A stretch of DNA of 32,477 nt from Thermodesulfobacteriota bacterium (GCA_028282925.1 JANQGV010000086.1:1-32477); one strand, 5' to 3'; shown: positions 528 to 7,397, counted from the stretch's first letter. Program-made: numbers and translations. Notes: generated by a model from the sequence alone, not told the origin.

Positions 528-565
528 AGTCCACTTTTAACGGACTTGTCCCGCCCAACAAGACA
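528..565. promoter_or_regulatory. Paired dyad, putative enhancer (UAS) of the sigma-54 activator
   Basis: Two adjacent dyads of identical geometry are visible: AGTCC-N9-GGACT (528-546) and TGTCC-N9-AGACA (547-565), with centres 19 bp apart. They lie about 106 and 125 bp upstream of the -24 GG of the sigma-54-like promoter at 661. The same two dyad types recur at 4241-4281, upstream of the second sigma-54 promoter. Position and pairing are typical of enhancer sites for NtrC-family activators. The likely ligand is the response regulator at 2749-4173, which is an inference. Confidence 0.7.
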
Positions 566-660
566 AAAAGTCCTGCCTGCCGCTCAAACACACCCGAAAA
601 AAAAGCCGTAACTAGTCGTATTAGCTTCGTGTTACAATCAAGCACGGTACAAGCACCTAT

Positions 661-675
661 TGGCATTTTTTTTGT
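661..675 (+). promoter_or_regulatory. Putative sigma-54 (-24/-12) promoter of the kinase-regulator operon
   Basis: TGGCAT-N5-TTGT fits the sigma-54 pattern TGGCAC-N5-TTGC, with the -24 GG at 662-663 and the correct spacing. The -12 element reads GT rather than GC, so it is weaker than the receptor promoter at 4383. It lies about 100 nt before the kinase start and downstream of paired activator-type dyads. Confidence 0.55.
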
Positions 676-773
676 AATGCAAATGATAGACATTATTATT
701 ACGGGAAGGAATACCCGCATTCATGCCGAATGCTCCTTGCAAAGGTGTAAGTATCGAGACGTGAAGGGAGACT

Positions 774-2756
774 ATGGACCGGGAAAACCTTTTGCAGGAA
801 ATAGCAGATCTGCAACGTAAGGTGAGCCGCCTCGAAGAGCAACAGGCCGCAAGTCTCAAGGTTGAGACTGCCCTGCGTGAAAGCGAGGGCAAGCTGTTCG
901 GGCTGGTAGGGGCCGTGACCGACAAGCTGAGCATGATCGACGAAAACCACACCATCGTCTTCGCCAGCACCACTACCCTTGAAAAGTTCGGCCACGACAT
1001 TGTGGGACAAAAATGCTACCGGGCGTTTCGCCGGCGCGACACGGTCTGCGACCCCTGTATTGTTTCCCAAACCTTTGCCGACGGCATGATACACGAGCTT
1101 GAACAGGACATGATAACCCGGGACAACCGGACCATCAACTGCTGGACCACCTCAAATGTCGCCGCCCGGTATGAGGACGGCCGCCCGCGCCTGGTGGTTG
1201 AATTTTCCCGCGACATCACCCGGCAGAAACAAGCCGAAGCCAAACTGAAGCGCCTCTGCACCGCCATCAACCAGTCCGACGAAGCGGTCATGATTACCGA
1301 CCGTAACGGCGCCATACAGTATGTCAATCCGGCCTTTACCGACATCACCGGCTACGAACAGCCTGAAGTCATCGGCAAAAACCCCGGTTTTCTCATGGCC
1401 GAAAAAAACCATGGGCCTTTTCATGCCGAATTCTGGAGCACCATCAAGGTCGGCAGCACCTGGAAAGGATACACCACCAGCACAAAAAAGGACGGCAGCC
1501 ACTATACCCAGCATGCCACCATTTCTCCGGTAACCGCCAACGGAGGAACCGTCACCAATTTCGTTGCGGTCATGCGCGACGTTACCGTTGAGCTGAACAT
1601 GGAAGAACAGATTCGCCAGTTGCAGAAGATGGAAGCCATCGGGGTGTTGGCCGGGGGCATTGCCCACGATTTCAACAACATACTGGGCATCATCATCACC
1701 AATGCCGAAATGGCAATTGAAGATGCCCTCCCCGGCTCTGAAACGCTCTACAGCATACGCCAGGTATTGGGCGCGTCGTATCGCGCCAAAGAGCTGATAC
1801 GGCAGATTCTGCTGTTCAGCCGCCGCTCCGAAAAAGAGCTGATGCCGCTGCACCTCGGGCCGCTGGTAAATGAGTCGCTCAAAATGCTCAGGTCCACCCT
1901 TCCGGCTTCCATTGAGATCAAGCAAAACATCAAAGCCGTTTCCGATGCGGTACTGTGCGACCCGATTCAGATCCACCAGTTGCTGATGAACCTGTGCACC
2001 AACTCGGCACAAGCCATGCAGGAGGCCGGGGGCACACTGGCCGTCACCCTGACCGAGGCCCGCAACATACCGGATAAAATCGCCGGCTATATGCCGGGCC
2101 CCTGCCTTGTGCTGACCGTCAGCGATACAGGCTGCGGTATATCTCCCGACAATATCAAAAAGATTTTCGATCCTTACTTCACCACCAAAAACCCGGGCGA
2201 AGGCACCGGGCTGGGGCTTTCGGTTGTGCTGGGCATTGTCAGAAGCCTGCAAGGGGAAATCATTGCACGCAGCACGCCGGGCCGGGGAACCACGTTTAAG
2301 ATATATTTACCCCGGGCCGTTTCCCGCAATGCAAAGTCACCCGATACCAAAAACGGCTTGCCCAGAGGCGAAGGCCGTATCCTGTTTATAGACGATGAGG
2401 CCCAGGTGGGCAATGCCGCATCACGCAGGTTGACGCGCCTCGGCTATACCCTTACCACCGAGACGACACCCCAGAACGCACTGGCCGTATTCAGGAGCGA
2501 TCCCGCTGCCTTCGACCTGGTGATAACAGACAAAACCATGCCCGACATGAACGGGTTTGAACTTGCCGCCGCCATGAAAGAAATCCGGCCTGATATTCCT
2601 GTCATCATATGTTCCGGCTACTTTGTGCCGGAGGATACAACGCTATCAAAAAAACTGGGCATAGCCGCCCTGCTGCCGAAACCCGTTACAAAAAAAGATC
2701 TGGCCGAAGCCATACAGTCTGTTCTTGATGATACAAAAGGAGAGTACCGTGGCTGA
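774..2756 (+). CDS. PAS-PAS hybrid histidine kinase with C-terminal receiver
   Basis: A 660-residue sensor kinase with no transmembrane segment, so probably cytoplasmic. After a short coiled coil (1-35) come two PAS domains (about 36-155 and 158-275). The first carries Cys81, Cys92 and Cys95 in a CY...CxxC arrangement that could bind a metal or sense redox. The dimerisation/phosphoacceptor box GGIAHDFNN has His298. ATPase motifs follow: N box around Asn406/Asn410, DTGCGIS (451-457) and GEGTGLGLS (475-483). The receiver (about 535-655) has acidic Asp540/Asp541, phospho-acceptor Asp586 and Lys636. Start: AAGGGAG sits 4 nt before ATG 774. Its last 8 nt overlap the next gene, so the two are translationally coupled. 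It probably phosphorylates the adjacent regulator; the signal is unknown. Confidence 0.93.
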   Translation: MDRENLLQEIADLQRKVSRLEEQQAASLKVETALRESEGKLFGLVGAVTDKLSMIDENHTIVFASTTTLEKFGHDIVGQKCYRAFRRRDTVCDPCIVSQTFADGMIHELEQDMITRDNRTINCWTTSNVAARYEDGRPRLVVEFSRDITRQKQAEAKLKRLCTAINQSDEAVMITDRNGAIQYVNPAFTDITGYEQPEVIGKNPGFLMAEKNHGPFHAEFWSTIKVGSTWKGYTTSTKKDGSHYTQHATISPVTANGGTVTNFVAVMRDVTVELNMEEQIRQLQKMEAIGVLAGGIAHDFNNILGIIITNAEMAIEDALPGSETLYSIRQVLGASYRAKELIRQILLFSRRSEKELMPLHLGPLVNESLKMLRSTLPASIEIKQNIKAVSDAVLCDPIQIHQLLMNLCTNSAQAMQEAGGTLAVTLTEARNIPDKIAGYMPGPCLVLTVSDTGCGISPDNIKKIFDPYFTTKNPGEGTGLGLSVVLGIVRSLQGEIIARSTPGRGTTFKIYLPRAVSRNAKSPDTKNGLPRGEGRILFIDDEAQVGNAASRRLTRLGYTLTTETTPQNALAVFRSDPAAFDLVITDKTMPDMNGFELAAAMKEIRPDIPVIICSGYFVPEDTTLSKKLGIAALLPKPVTKKDLAEAIQSVLDDTKGEYRG

Positions 2757-4173
2757 CATTCTGATCATCGACGACGACATGATGATGTGCAACACCATGG
2801 AACGCATTGTAACCCACATGGGTCATACGGCCCGTTCGGCCCATACCCTGAAAAAAGGCCGTAACATGGTTTCAATCGGTTCCTACGATGTTGTGCTGCT
2901 TGATGTGCTCATGCCCGACGGCAGCGGGCTCGATCTTGTGCCGCAGATCCGGCATGTTCCCGACGCCCCCGAGATTATCATTATAACGTCCCTCGGCAAC
3001 CCCGAGGGTGCCGAGCTTGCCATCCGGAACGGGGCCTGGGATTATGTGGAAAAGCCGTTCTCAAAACAGGACATCGTACTGCAGGTCAGCCGTGCCCTGG
3101 AATACCGTACCGCAAAAACGTCCCGCAAGGACCATTCATCACTCAAGCGCGACAACATCATCGGAAACTCTCCGGCCATATCAAGCTGCCTGGATCTGGT
3201 GGCCGACGCTGCGGAAAGTGAGGCAACCGTTTTAATACAGGGTGAAACCGGTTCTGGTAAAGAACTGTTCGCCCGCACGATTCACGATAACAGCGCCCGC
3301 AAAGACAACGACTTCATCATTGTCGATTGTGCTGCAATACCGGGATCGCTTATTGAAAGCCTGCTGTTCGGCAACGTCAAAGGCGCTTTTACCGGGGCGG
3401 ACCGGGACAAAACCGGACTGGTTAAACTGGCCCACCGCGGCACCCTCTTTCTTGACGAAGTCGGCGAACTCCCCTTAAAGGTTCAAAAGGTTTTTTTACG
3501 GGTATTGCAGGAGCGCCGCTTCAGGCCCGTTGGGTCACACCGTGAGGTGGTCAGCGATTTTCGGCTGGTTGCCGCCACCAACCGCAATCTCGAACACATG
3601 GCTGCAGAGGGTACCTTCCGCAAAGACCTTCTCTACCGCCTGCAGCAGGTAACCATAGCAATCCCGCCGCTGAACCAGCGTCCGGAGGACATACGGGAAC
3701 TTACCCGGGAATATGTGGCCCGCATATACAGGCAGGCGGAGGTACCGCCCAAAAGCATCACCCCTGATTTTTTCAAGTCCCTGTGCGTGTATACCTGGCC
3801 CGGCAATGTACGCGAACTGTTCAACACCCTCGAGCGTGCCCTTGCAGCCGCCGGCAACGATTCACAGCTTGTGCCTCTGCACCTGCCCGACAATATCCGC
3901 ATCCACCAGGTTCGCACATCCCTCGGCGCACAGCCGAAAGACGATAACGGTTCAGCCCCTGTCTCCTCTTCCGGGGAGGTCGCGCCGCCTGAAACCATGC
4001 CCCTGTTCAAGGAAATGCGCTCGGCTGAACTGTTGAAAATAGAGTACAAATATTTTCGTCGGCTCATCGCACTTGCCGACGGCGACATCCGCAAAGCGTG
4101 CGCGATCTCAGGCCTCGGCCGATCCTACCTATACGGCCAGTTAAAAAAACACGGTCTGCGACTCAGCAGGTAG
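2749..4173 (+). CDS. Sigma-54-dependent NtrC-family response regulator
   Basis: Start chosen at GTG 2749, 6 nt after AAAGGAG, rather than upstream TTG/ATG codons; this gives 474 aa beginning [10 protein letters not shown]. The receiver (1-120) has acidic Asp8-10, phospho-acceptor Asp52 and Lys102. The AAA+ domain (about 137-370) has Walker A GETGSGKE (165-172), the sigma-54 contact loop GAFTGA (212-217), Walker B LFLDE (233-237) and an arginine-finger region RKDLLYRL. A Fis-type helix-turn-helix lies at the C-terminus ([20 protein letters not shown]). It is predicted to bind enhancer DNA and drive sigma-54 open-complex formation. The GTCC-N9-GGAC dyad pairs upstream of this operon and of the receptor gene are its likely sites, implying autoregulation plus control of the receptor. 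Full family length with all key residues present. Confidence 0.95.
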
Positions 4174-4240
4174 CCTGTTGGGTAATACGGATTAATGCGT
4201 ACTCTGAAATGGTGAATATCCTTTTTCAACCGTCCCAACC

Positions 4241-4281
4241 TGTCCTGCACCATGGGACACAGTCCGCACACATCGGACTGT
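4241..4281. promoter_or_regulatory. Paired dyad, putative enhancer (UAS) upstream of the chemoreceptor
   Basis: TGTCC-N9-GGACA (4241-4259) is followed by ACAGTCC-N9-GGACTGT (4259-4281), both perfect dyads with centres 20 bp apart. They sit about 114 and 134 bp upstream of the -24 element at 4384. Both dyad types and their N9 spacing match the pair at 528-565, in reversed order. This is the strongest evidence in the window for a dedicated regulon of the adjacent sigma-54 activator. Confidence 0.75.
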
Positions 4282-4382
4282 CTGTGCTCTTACTCGATAC
4301 ACCATAAGTAAAAACCATTACCTGCCTTACATAATTCACTGATATAACATCAATTTTTAATTATTATGTTTTTTTTCAAACA

Positions 4383-4397
4383 TGGCACACCCTTTGC
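4383..4397 (+). promoter_or_regulatory. Sigma-54 promoter of the chemoreceptor gene
   Basis: TGGCAC-N5-TTGC is a consensus match: -24 GG at 4384-4385 and -12 GC at 4396-4397, predicting a start near 4408. It lies 64 nt before the receptor ATG and follows an AT-rich stretch that could assist DNA bending between the enhancer and the promoter. Confidence 0.85.
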
Positions 4398-4460: not shown

Positions 4461-6638
4461 ATGAACTGGAAAAATCTAAAAATCGGGCAAAAGCTCGGAA
4501 CCGGTTTCGGTATCGTGCTTGTGCTGTTGAGCATAACCGGCCTGCTCACCTACACCGGCGTAGGAACCATTGTGGACAATGCCAAAGAGGTCATCAGCGG
4601 CAATAAACTGGATGGTCTGCTGGCCCAGCGTGAGGTAGACCACCTGAACTGGGCCAACCAGGTTAATGCCCTGCTTACCGACAGCACGGTAACTACATTG
4701 AACGTGCAGACCGACCGCCATAAATGCTCCTTCGGCGAGTGGTATTACGGCCCCGAGCGCAAACAGGCCGAACAGCAGGTGCCCGAACTGAAGCCGCTGC
4801 TCGCAAAGATTGAAACCCCGCACCGGAATCTCCATGAATCGGCCGTGGACATCGCTCAGGTGTTCCGCCAGGCAGATACGGAGTTGGGCAATTTTCTGCG
4901 CGAAAAAGAGACCGACCACCTGGCCTGGGCTCACAGGGTTAAAGATGTCTTTGTGGATCATTCCATCACCAAAATAAATGCCGAAATGGACCCCCGCCGG
5001 TGCAGCTTTGGAAAATGGCTTTACTCCAAAGAGGTCGCAGAATTAAAACGCAACAATCCGGCATTTGCGGCTGAGATTGCCAAAGTAGAAGAGCCGCACA
5101 CAAAGCTTCACGAAAGCGCGCGTCACATCCAGGCCCTGCTTGATGAGGGCAAACGTAGTGAAGCTGCGCCATATTATATGGAAAACACAAAACCGCTTGC
5201 GTATAAAACCCTCGACGCCATCGACAATATTTTAATCTGGAGCGATAATCAGGTTGCCGGAATGCACAAGGCAAATAAAATCTACGCCGAAACAACACAG
5301 CCTGCCCTGAAACAGGTGCAGCAACTGCTTGATGAAATCAGGGAAACTGCACGGGAAAGCATTATGACCGACGCCGCCATGCTGGCCTCTGCCCAGGGTA
5401 CCCGCCGCAACGTGAGCATCGTTGCTGTTGTGGCCCTGGTTGTCGGTTTGTTCCTGGCCGGTGTTATAACAATCGGCATTACCCGGCCGATTGTCAAGGG
5501 AGTTGACTTTGCCAATAAAATGGCCGGGGGAGACCTTACGGCCACCATTGACCTTGACCAGAAGGATGAAATAGGCGTGCTGGCCCGCTCCATGACCGAA
5601 ATGGCGCAGAAGCTGCGCGAAGTTATCACCAGTGTGCGCGGCGGAGCCGACCAGGTGTTTGTAATGGCCGAGGACGTTAAGGAAGCGGCCGACAATGTGT
5701 CTTCAACCAGCGAGGAAATGAGCGCTACAGCCGAACAGATGTCCCAGGGCGCAACAGAACAGGCCGCCGCCGCCGAGGAGGCCTCCAGTTCAATGGAGCA
5801 GATGAGCGCAAACATCAAACAAAACGCCGACAACGCCCTGCAAACCGAAAAAATCGCCCTGCAAACCGCTGAAGACGCCCAGGAGGGCGGTATTGCCGTC
5901 AGTGAAACCGTTACGGCAATGAAGGAGATTGCAGGCAAGATATCCATTATCGAGGAAATCGCCCGCCAGACAAACCTTCTGGCCCTCAATGCCGCCATTG
6001 AAGCGGCCCGGGCCGGTGAAGCAGGCAAGGGGTTTGCCGTGGTGGCCTCAGAGGTCAGAAAACTTGCCGAACGCAGCCAGACGGCCGCCGGTGAAATAAA
6101 CACCCTCTCCAACAACAGTGTTATGGTGGCCGAGAAGGCCGGAGATCTACTCGAAAAAATTGTTCCCGACATTCGTAAAACAGCCGATCTGGTACAGGAA
6201 ATCAGCGCCGCCTGCACCGAGCAGAATACCGGTGCCGATCAGATAAACAAGGCCATCCAGCAACTGGATCAGGTTATTCAGCAAAATGCTTCGGCTTCAG
6301 AAGAAATGTCGTCCAGCTCCGAAAGCATGTCTTCCAATGCCGAAGAAATGGCATCGGGAGCCGGTGAAATGACCGACCAGTCCCGCCGGCTTCAGCAGGT
6401 TATCACATTTTTTAATACAGGAGAACAAACAGTCACCCATGAGCAGTTGCGGCACCGGCCCCGGAAAAGCATCACTGCCGCAACTGCTCCCCCTCCTCCT
6501 AAGCCCGCTGCTGCAATGCCTTTTGAGGCACCGGCAGAAAAACCGGTGGAAGAGAAGAGTTCCGGCGTTGCACTCGACATGGGCCGGAACGACGGCAACG
6601 GCCATACAGTAAGGGATGACGAGTTCGAACAGTATTAA
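4461..6638 (+). CDS. Methyl-accepting chemotaxis protein with two tandem periplasmic CZB domains
   Basis: A 725-aa transmembrane chemoreceptor; GGAGG precedes the ATG. TM1 is about 14-31 and TM2 about 318-340. Between them, in the predicted periplasm, are two chemoreceptor zinc-binding (CZB) units with the same ligand set: His61, Cys89, His121, His125 and His153, Cys181, His213, His217. The offset is exactly 92 residues, indicating tandem duplication. HAMP follows TM2, then a long methylation/signalling coiled coil with the conserved hairpin tip ([20 protein letters not shown]). A Pro/Ala-rich linker leads to a C-terminus ending EFEQY, whose aromatic-x-x-aromatic pattern recalls CheR-binding pentapeptides. 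CZB domains are best known in cytoplasmic positions, so the location is notable. Zinc, or hypochlorite as for other CZB receptors, is a candidate ligand by family inference only. A consensus sigma-54 promoter and paired enhancer sites lie upstream. Confidence 0.93.
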
Positions 6639-6854: not shown

Positions 6855-7397
6855 ATGGCAGTAGCAGGCATTACCACAACATCTTCGTATCTTTCCTTTA
6901 CCCTCGACGGAGAAAACTTCGCCATTGAGGTTAATAAATCACGCGAAGTACTCGACTTTATAAACGTAACCAAAGTGCCCCATGCCCTGGAGTATATGAT
7001 CGGGGTGATAAATGTGCGGGGCAGCGTGGTACCGGTTATCGACATGCGGATGAAATTCGGCATCGATCAAAAGGAACAGACCGTCAACTCCTGCATTATC
7101 CTGGTTGAGCTCTCCCTTCAGGATGACGATCAGGTTGTGGGATGCCTGGTCGACTCGGTGCATGAGGTGCTTGAGATTAAGCCTGAAAGCATTGAACCGG
7201 CGCCGAAAATCGGCACCCGCTGGAACACCGAGTACATTCGCGGCATAGGCAACCATAACGGTCGGTTTATCATCATCCTGAATATCGACCGAATATTCTC
7301 GGATGCCGATATCGATATGGTGCAGAAATCGGCCGCCCCGGCGGAGATTGCCGCGCAACAGGAAACAAACCAGGGCCGGGAGATATCCCTGACGTAG
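6855..7397 (+). CDS. cheW: CheW-type chemotaxis adaptor protein
   Basis: A 180-residue CheW domain protein occupying almost its whole length (about 12-155). Family features include the opening segment YLSFTLDGENFAIEV and the central GVINVRGSVVPVIDMRMKFG. A polar tail of about 25 residues rich in Ala/Gln follows. CheW links chemoreceptor tips to the CheA kinase at the inner membrane. GGGAGG lies 7 nt before ATG 6855 and may be sequestered in a hairpin. It follows the receptor gene by about 216 nt, with a terminator between, so it may use its own promoter, which I could not identify. No CheA, CheR, CheB or CheY-alone gene is in the window, so the receptor/CheW pair must feed a chemosensory array encoded elsewhere. 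Confidence 0.95.
   Translation: MAVAGITTTSSYLSFTLDGENFAIEVNKSREVLDFINVTKVPHALEYMIGVINVRGSVVPVIDMRMKFGIDQKEQTVNSCIILVELSLQDDDQVVGCLVDSVHEVLEIKPESIEPAPKIGTRWNTEYIRGIGNHNGRFIIILNIDRIFSDADIDMVQKSAAPAEIAAQQETNQGREISLT

Follow-up and report, generated by a model that had tools for sequence, protein, structure and literature searches.

Activators of the NtrC type follow a common scheme: phosphorylation of the receiver releases formation of an AAA+ ring, dimers bind to dyads in the DNA, two adjacent dyads nucleate the ring, and the ring reaches the sigma-54 polymerase by looping. In the case of enteric NtrC (NR-I), paired upstream dyads lie about 110-140 bp before the sigma-54 promoter, as at glnAp2. 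Motility or chemotaxis genes are the targets of other sigma-54 activators, FlrC, FleQ/FleR and FlgR. As a rule, the regulons of sigma-54 activators are small and hard to predict. We here deal with paired dyads in a stretch of 32,477 nucleotides from a Thermodesulfobacteriota bacterium (GCA_028282925.1 JANQGV010000086.1:1-32477; the whole stretch is called the window), part of contig C5 of a draft genome of 5.6 Mb in 324 contigs. The pairs flank the operon of a hybrid kinase and an NtrC-type activator, P0002, and most of their counterparts elsewhere in the genome precede chemoreceptor operons.

In Desulfovibrio vulgaris Hildenborough, according to two papers (Kazakov et al. 2015, PMC4641369; Rajeev et al. 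2011, PMC3333781), response-regulator activators are encoded next to the sigma-54 promoters on which they act. Their sites are described there as palindromic and fall into three groups of motifs built from TGT and ACA half-sites, and the regulons mostly comprise one to four operons (PMC4641369, PMC3333781). In the same texts, the chemotaxis-linked sigma-54 promoters have no predicted upstream site and no chemoreceptor regulon is assigned (PMC4641369, PMC3333781). Nor did the open-access literature, subscription papers being outside the scope, yield a chemoreceptor regulon of this sigma-54 paired-dyad kind.

The features of the window that matter here are listed below. R1 is a sequence-only model built from 14 pairs, all from other genomes, and then run on the window's genome.

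528-546, no strand: distal dyad of the kinase-operon enhancer, AGTCC-N9-GGACT, exact match (R1 match 527-568, 18.3 bits)
547-565, no strand: proximal dyad of the kinase-operon enhancer, TGTCC-N9-AGACA, TGTCCCGCCCAACAAGACA, one mismatch to the strict motif
661-675, plus strand: sigma-54-like promoter TGGCATTTTTTTTGT of the kinase-regulator operon, score 13.4
774-2756, plus strand: hybrid histidine kinase with PAS domains, HisKA, HATPase_c and C-terminal receiver (Pfam)
2749-4173, plus strand: NtrC-type sigma-54 activator P0002 with receiver, AAA+ with GAFTGA and Fis-like helix-turn-helix (HTH), GTG start (Pfam)
4241-4259, no strand: distal dyad of the receptor enhancer, TGTCC-N9-GGACA, exact match (R1 match 4239-4280)
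4261-4279, no strand: proximal dyad of the receptor enhancer, AGTCC-N9-GGACT, exact match
4383-4397, plus strand: sigma-54-like promoter TGGCACACCCTTTGC of the receptor operon, score 17.5
4461-6638, plus strand: chemoreceptor (methyl-accepting chemotaxis protein, MCP) with two CZB domains, HAMP, short-hairpin signalling domain and tail DDEFEQY (Pfam, class tree)
6855-7397, plus strand: CheW (Pfam)

A first-pass annotation, made from the sequence alone, had seen four dyads of identical geometry here, each pair followed by a sigma-54 promoter. Both promoters are indeed where it placed them; they are the only two sites in the window that match TGGCAY-N5-TTGY without mismatch. Counted from GTC of the dyad to TGG of the promoter, the proximal and distal dyads are 113 and 132 bp away on the kinase side, 121 and 141 bp on the receptor side. 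The identity of the dyads holds for three of them. The fourth, at 547-565, has A in place of G compared with WGTCC-N9-GGACW and fully matches the broader GTCY-N9-RGAC. The 'swapped order' of the two pairs is merely the outer base, A or T; an order code was rejected, as this base is free (W) in the wider set and no such code was found there.

P0002 has the makings of an NtrC-type protein: Response_reg and Sigma54_activat by Pfam, plus GAFTGA and a C-terminal Fis-like helix, both identified by eye; none of the Pfam Fis-type HTH models reached E 0.001 on it. Palindromes 80-200 bp upstream of a -24/-12 promoter are likewise present at the locus. The activator gene overlaps the kinase gene, the two forming one operon, and CheW probably shares one with the chemoreceptor.

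The pairing, not the single dyad, is what stands out. Single exact dyads occur 14 times in the genome, fewer than the 30 of a reversed control. The pair GTCY-N9-RGAC, 1-3 bp, GTCY-N9-RGAC is found at four places in the whole genome, two of them being the window pairs, and its reversed control at none; to this extent the annotation was right to consider chance unlikely. It had also named two refuting conditions, and neither holds: the dyads are kept at related promoters, and pairs without sigma-54 sites are not frequent. Among 395 sampled genomes of the phylum the paired motif is present in 20. Since the reversed control occurs in roughly 40 of the 395, nearly always once each, isolated chance pairs do exist, and genomic context is needed to judge a pair. 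The dyad pairs of the window and its two sigma-54 promoters are genuine and exceed chance by far.

That context is supplied by the rest of the genome, which also encodes RpoN. The nine best places of R1 are on contigs C315, C167, C164, C106, C141 and C175 (9164), at window 527, on C221 and at window 4240; lower-ranked matches are on C166 (9156) and C175 (1590). Two loci of P0002 paralogs, C134 and C109, were joined to the set by inspection. Twelve of these cassettes have a sigma-54 site:

window: kinase-activator operon
window: MCP-CheW operon
C106: small unknown protein, MCP-like protein, STAS, CheA, MCP and CheR, all on one strand
C134: small protein, dCache MCP
C141: Rrf2, STAS, CheA, dCache receptor (cut by the contig end)
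C164: CheA, Cache MCP
C167: MCP
C175 (1590): MCP-CheW
C175 (9164): receiver-kinase
C221: MCP
C166: MCP-CheW
C109: small protein, MCP

Ten of the twelve thus precede chemoreceptor operons, in a genome that holds about 31 MCP signalling domains; no flagellar genes were seen among the targets. The distance from the proximal GTC to the -24 TGG is 110, 110, 110, 111, 111, 112, 113, 114, 114, 121 and 124 bp in eleven cassettes, and 130 bp in the weak GTAC variant on C109. The spacers vary little in length and are mostly AT-rich (GC 0.26-0.49). A site for IHF in them is not claimed: 6-9 of 9 positions matched, in mostly AT-rich spacers and with no background comparison.

Several candidates were set aside. 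R1 matches on C82, C22, C176 and C225 were not counted because no sigma-54 site is nearby, and single dyads of the extended motif on C38, C68, C84, C98 and C174 were dismissed as intragenic and lacking a sigma-54 site. A dyad on C107 was excluded, as it adjoins a different large kinase-activator protein, probably its owner. There (L039:1546-1736), downstream of a 1054-aa hybrid kinase that has a sigma-54 activator domain of its own, come a different dyad, TGTCCA-N7-TGGACA, and a sigma-54-like site; this is probably another local pair of activator and target. The best R1 match in the genome (L189:4044-4089, at the end of C315) comprises at least two dyads and runs into a third before the contig breaks off.

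One divergent class of receptors is almost entirely behind the cassettes. Receptor signalling domains fall into two groups (100/100 support) that differ by seven-residue gaps in each hairpin arm. The short-hairpin group consists of the receptors of C5, C109, C134, C167, C221, C166, C106 and C7, all but the last in cassette operons; where intact, its members have in common an F-x-x-Y type of tail preceded by acidic residues. Among 16 receptors of the long type, one has a pair (C175) and one more (C166, beside a paralog activator) a sigma-54 site only. The link of cassette to class, 7/8 short versus 1/16 long, has a Fisher p of about 2e-4, calculated by hand; the C106 receptor counts as a member through an operon reading of two overlapping loci. 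Of the receptor tree only the two-class split was used; its group-label counts were left aside, since more than one receptor lies on C106 and on C109 and the labels are imprecise there. For ten further MCP genes with upstream DNA examined, no pair stands directly before the gene, and the sigma-54 matches amount to a single weak one at most; one of the ten, on C106, belongs to the C106 cassette operon itself.

The cis code can be followed beyond this genome. The P0002 clade, defined by E <= 1e-112 to P0002 with the next group near 1e-89, is clearly distinct from other activators and is found in 85 of the 395 genomes. The genome of the window has five members, P0002 and four paralogs of about 51-54% identity, on C106, C109, C134 and C166. 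At 57/95 clade loci a sigma-54-like site follows the regulator gene at a distance of up to 500 bp, versus 55/1486 random stretches of the same DNA; the window follows this arrangement with the promoter at 4383. High-scoring pairs within the same distance were counted at 22/95 loci and in 23/1486 stretches. In the 230 bp before the sigma-54 sites of 61 regulator-adjacent clade loci, GTCY...RGAC arms are spaced N9 in 19 and N8 in 10, other spacings scoring 0-6 and control arms 0-5. Dyads of this N8/9 type, present at the window locus, are common, not universal, in the clade. Pairs mostly lie no more than 150 bp from the stop codon of the activator gene (L031, about 400 bp after it, is an exception) and usually about 110-165 bp from the promoter, in several genera and families. 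A fuller consensus reads WGTCYTG-N5-CARGACW, the inner TG/CA often being degenerate.

After the sigma-54 promoters of the paralog activators, the first gene encodes a small protein of 134-154 aa (L031:4497-4961, L032:5090-5512, L033:4414-4818, L034:10320-10781), often with a receptor next. It has no significant Pfam match, and two copies were also without an NCBIfam match.

Pairs, promoters, their spacing and conservation, and the chemotaxis genes downstream are matters of record. What they do can be proposed. The dyad pairs would be upstream activating sequences for a P0002-clade activator. This protein would be phosphorylated by the PAS hybrid kinase linked to it, its dimers would occupy the two adjacent 19-bp dyads, and an AAA+ ring assembled on the pair would touch RNA polymerase-sigma-54 across the spacer of ~110-120 bp by looping and activate it. 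The sequence fits this mechanism: P0002 carries GAFTGA, the genome encodes RpoN, the two dyads of a pair adjoin each other, and the spacer is near-constant in length and mostly AT-rich. The same cassette before about ten operons of chemoreceptors, CheA, CheW and CheR would coordinate the expression of a mostly separate chemosensory system. As a whole, this explanation by a paired activating sequence, a P0002-clade activator, sigma-54 and a dispersed chemosensory regulon is likely, we believe; binding, phosphorylation, looping, activation and the assignment of paralogs to promoters are its inferred parts.

Since the kinase-regulator operon has a full cassette in front of it, positive autoregulation is plausible there. 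It is not a trait of the family: a sigma-54 site upstream of the operon is seen at only 5/60 clade loci (a pair there, also 5/60), as against the 57/95 downstream of the regulator.

The first-pass annotation had concluded that one regulator drives its own operon and a chemoreceptor. Paired sites, sigma-54 promoters and an intact activator support the arrangement; that one regulator serves both promoters is not established, since four paralogs carry very similar recognition helices. Its small regulon of two promoters appears to be a fragment of a chemosensory one, because the same cassettes precede about ten chemoreceptor operons, and the predicted output is the coordinated system rather than the supply of one receptor.

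Several observations weigh against this explanation. The -12 element at 661 has a final GT instead of GC, several other cassette promoters are weak (C164 scores 10.8), and C315 shows no promoter at the contig end. In the clade, a dyad is recognisable at only about a third of the regulator-adjacent promoters; paralog C166 has none at its own, and C109 has the GTAC variant. Also, related-genome pairs precede non-chemotaxis genes: in G003, of the same family, and in others, pair and sigma-54 site stand before hybrid kinases, a receiver protein, a TonB receptor and a methionine sulfoxide reductase. The comparison indicates a cis code conserved among genomes with changing targets, and suggests that the chemosensory bias is, as far as seen, specific to the lineage of the window. 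In genome G204 (L305:2334-3669), what follows pair and sigma-54 site is an oxidant-repair gene, for a methionine sulfoxide reductase in which MsrA and MsrB are fused.

As to which paralog acts where, the kinase-regulator paralogs, or several of them, may share these pairs, which would let different signals feed into one chemosensory regulon. Recognition helices are similar among the five paralogs, the twelve cassettes outnumber the paralogs, and several receptor cassettes occur on contigs where no clade regulator was found (C141, C164, C167, C175, C221). The sub-types of the half-sites, in contrast, hint at discrimination. We regard such sharing as quite possible, if short of probable. The stronger version, that several kinase-activator pairs with one code jointly turn on a whole, structurally distinct chemosensory system via sigma-54, comprising the short-hairpin receptors and their own CheA, CheW and CheR, is more speculative. 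If it were true, the cell would change which sensing system gets built, beyond how signalling runs.

Alternatively, P0002 might bind the two window pairs only, the others belonging to paralogs with slightly different half-sites. The window pairs do share a GTCC sub-type, with GTCC in 7/8 half-sites and TG at +5/+6 in only 2/8, while most other pairs of the genome read GTCYTG/CARGAC; and the helix of P0002 has SY where that on C106 (SGLSRTRLYALLKTH) has TR. The helices are otherwise nearly identical, however, R1 recovers both window pairs in spite of its training on TG-type and mixed sites, and the correlation of helix residue with inner base across the clade, rejected as an argument, is not significant (Fisher p 0.07; at locus level 0.20). 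Such a private circuit is possible, yet we are inclined to doubt it.

That the pairs bind a different, non-sigma-54 regulator, e.g., a repressor of the same operons, and are near sigma-54 sites by operon architecture only, appears improbable. GTCY-N9-RGAC is a generic palindrome, of course, and binding of P0002 to it is a prediction; the near-constant 110-124 bp to the -24 element and the position of pairs after the activator gene itself in many genera speak against such a regulator. Chance palindromes, an idea to which only the unenriched single dyads lend support, are already refuted by pair enrichment over the reversed control, recovery with a model from other genomes, spacing and gene context, and their probability is practically nil.

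If the favoured explanation by a P0002-clade activator and paired activating sequences is true, a second, mostly separate sensing system is turned on via sigma-54. The cis code is legible from the promoter beside the activator gene and transferable from one genome to another. The existence of the dispersed chemosensory regulon to which it points, its signal and the division of labour among five paralogous activators are directly testable. It would also tie a kinase input to how a distinct class of receptors is expressed, where the question is normally put for receptor signalling alone.

Some further features of the window deserve mention. Both zinc-binding CZB domains of its chemoreceptor are probably outside the cytoplasm, because they are located between two apparent membrane helices (read by eye); CZB domains described so far are mostly cytoplasmic. 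A paralog with a very similar N-terminus sits in the C106 chemotaxis operon (L260:1793-3985). An inverted repeat of 30 nt, 80% complementary, has arms at 45-74 and 179-208, 104 nt apart (GAGGCTGTGTC/GACACAGCCTC type); similar GAGGCTG... stretches near L031 and L034 are perhaps copies of a dispersed small repeat element.

Compared with the known systems, the locus resembles D. vulgaris, as far as the texts of the two papers go, in having an activator beside a controlled sigma-54 promoter and palindromic sites of the TGT/ACA type. The gap between TGT and ACA is 9, 11 or 12 bp there versus 13 bp here, though an individual matching motif is possible, and the sites are not described in those texts as obligate side-by-side pairs, unlike those of the window. 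With NtrC (NR-I), P0002 has in common the order of receiver, AAA+ and Fis-like HTH as well as the paired upstream dyads; half-sites and target genes differ, and its score against the NtrC equivalog model TIGR01818 is 337.6 bits, below the cutoff of 558.6. The FlgR and FlbD models score 262.2 and 242.1, both below their cutoff of 750. In contrast to those of FlrC, FleQ/FleR and FlgR, the targets here are operons of receptors, CheA, CheW and CheR.

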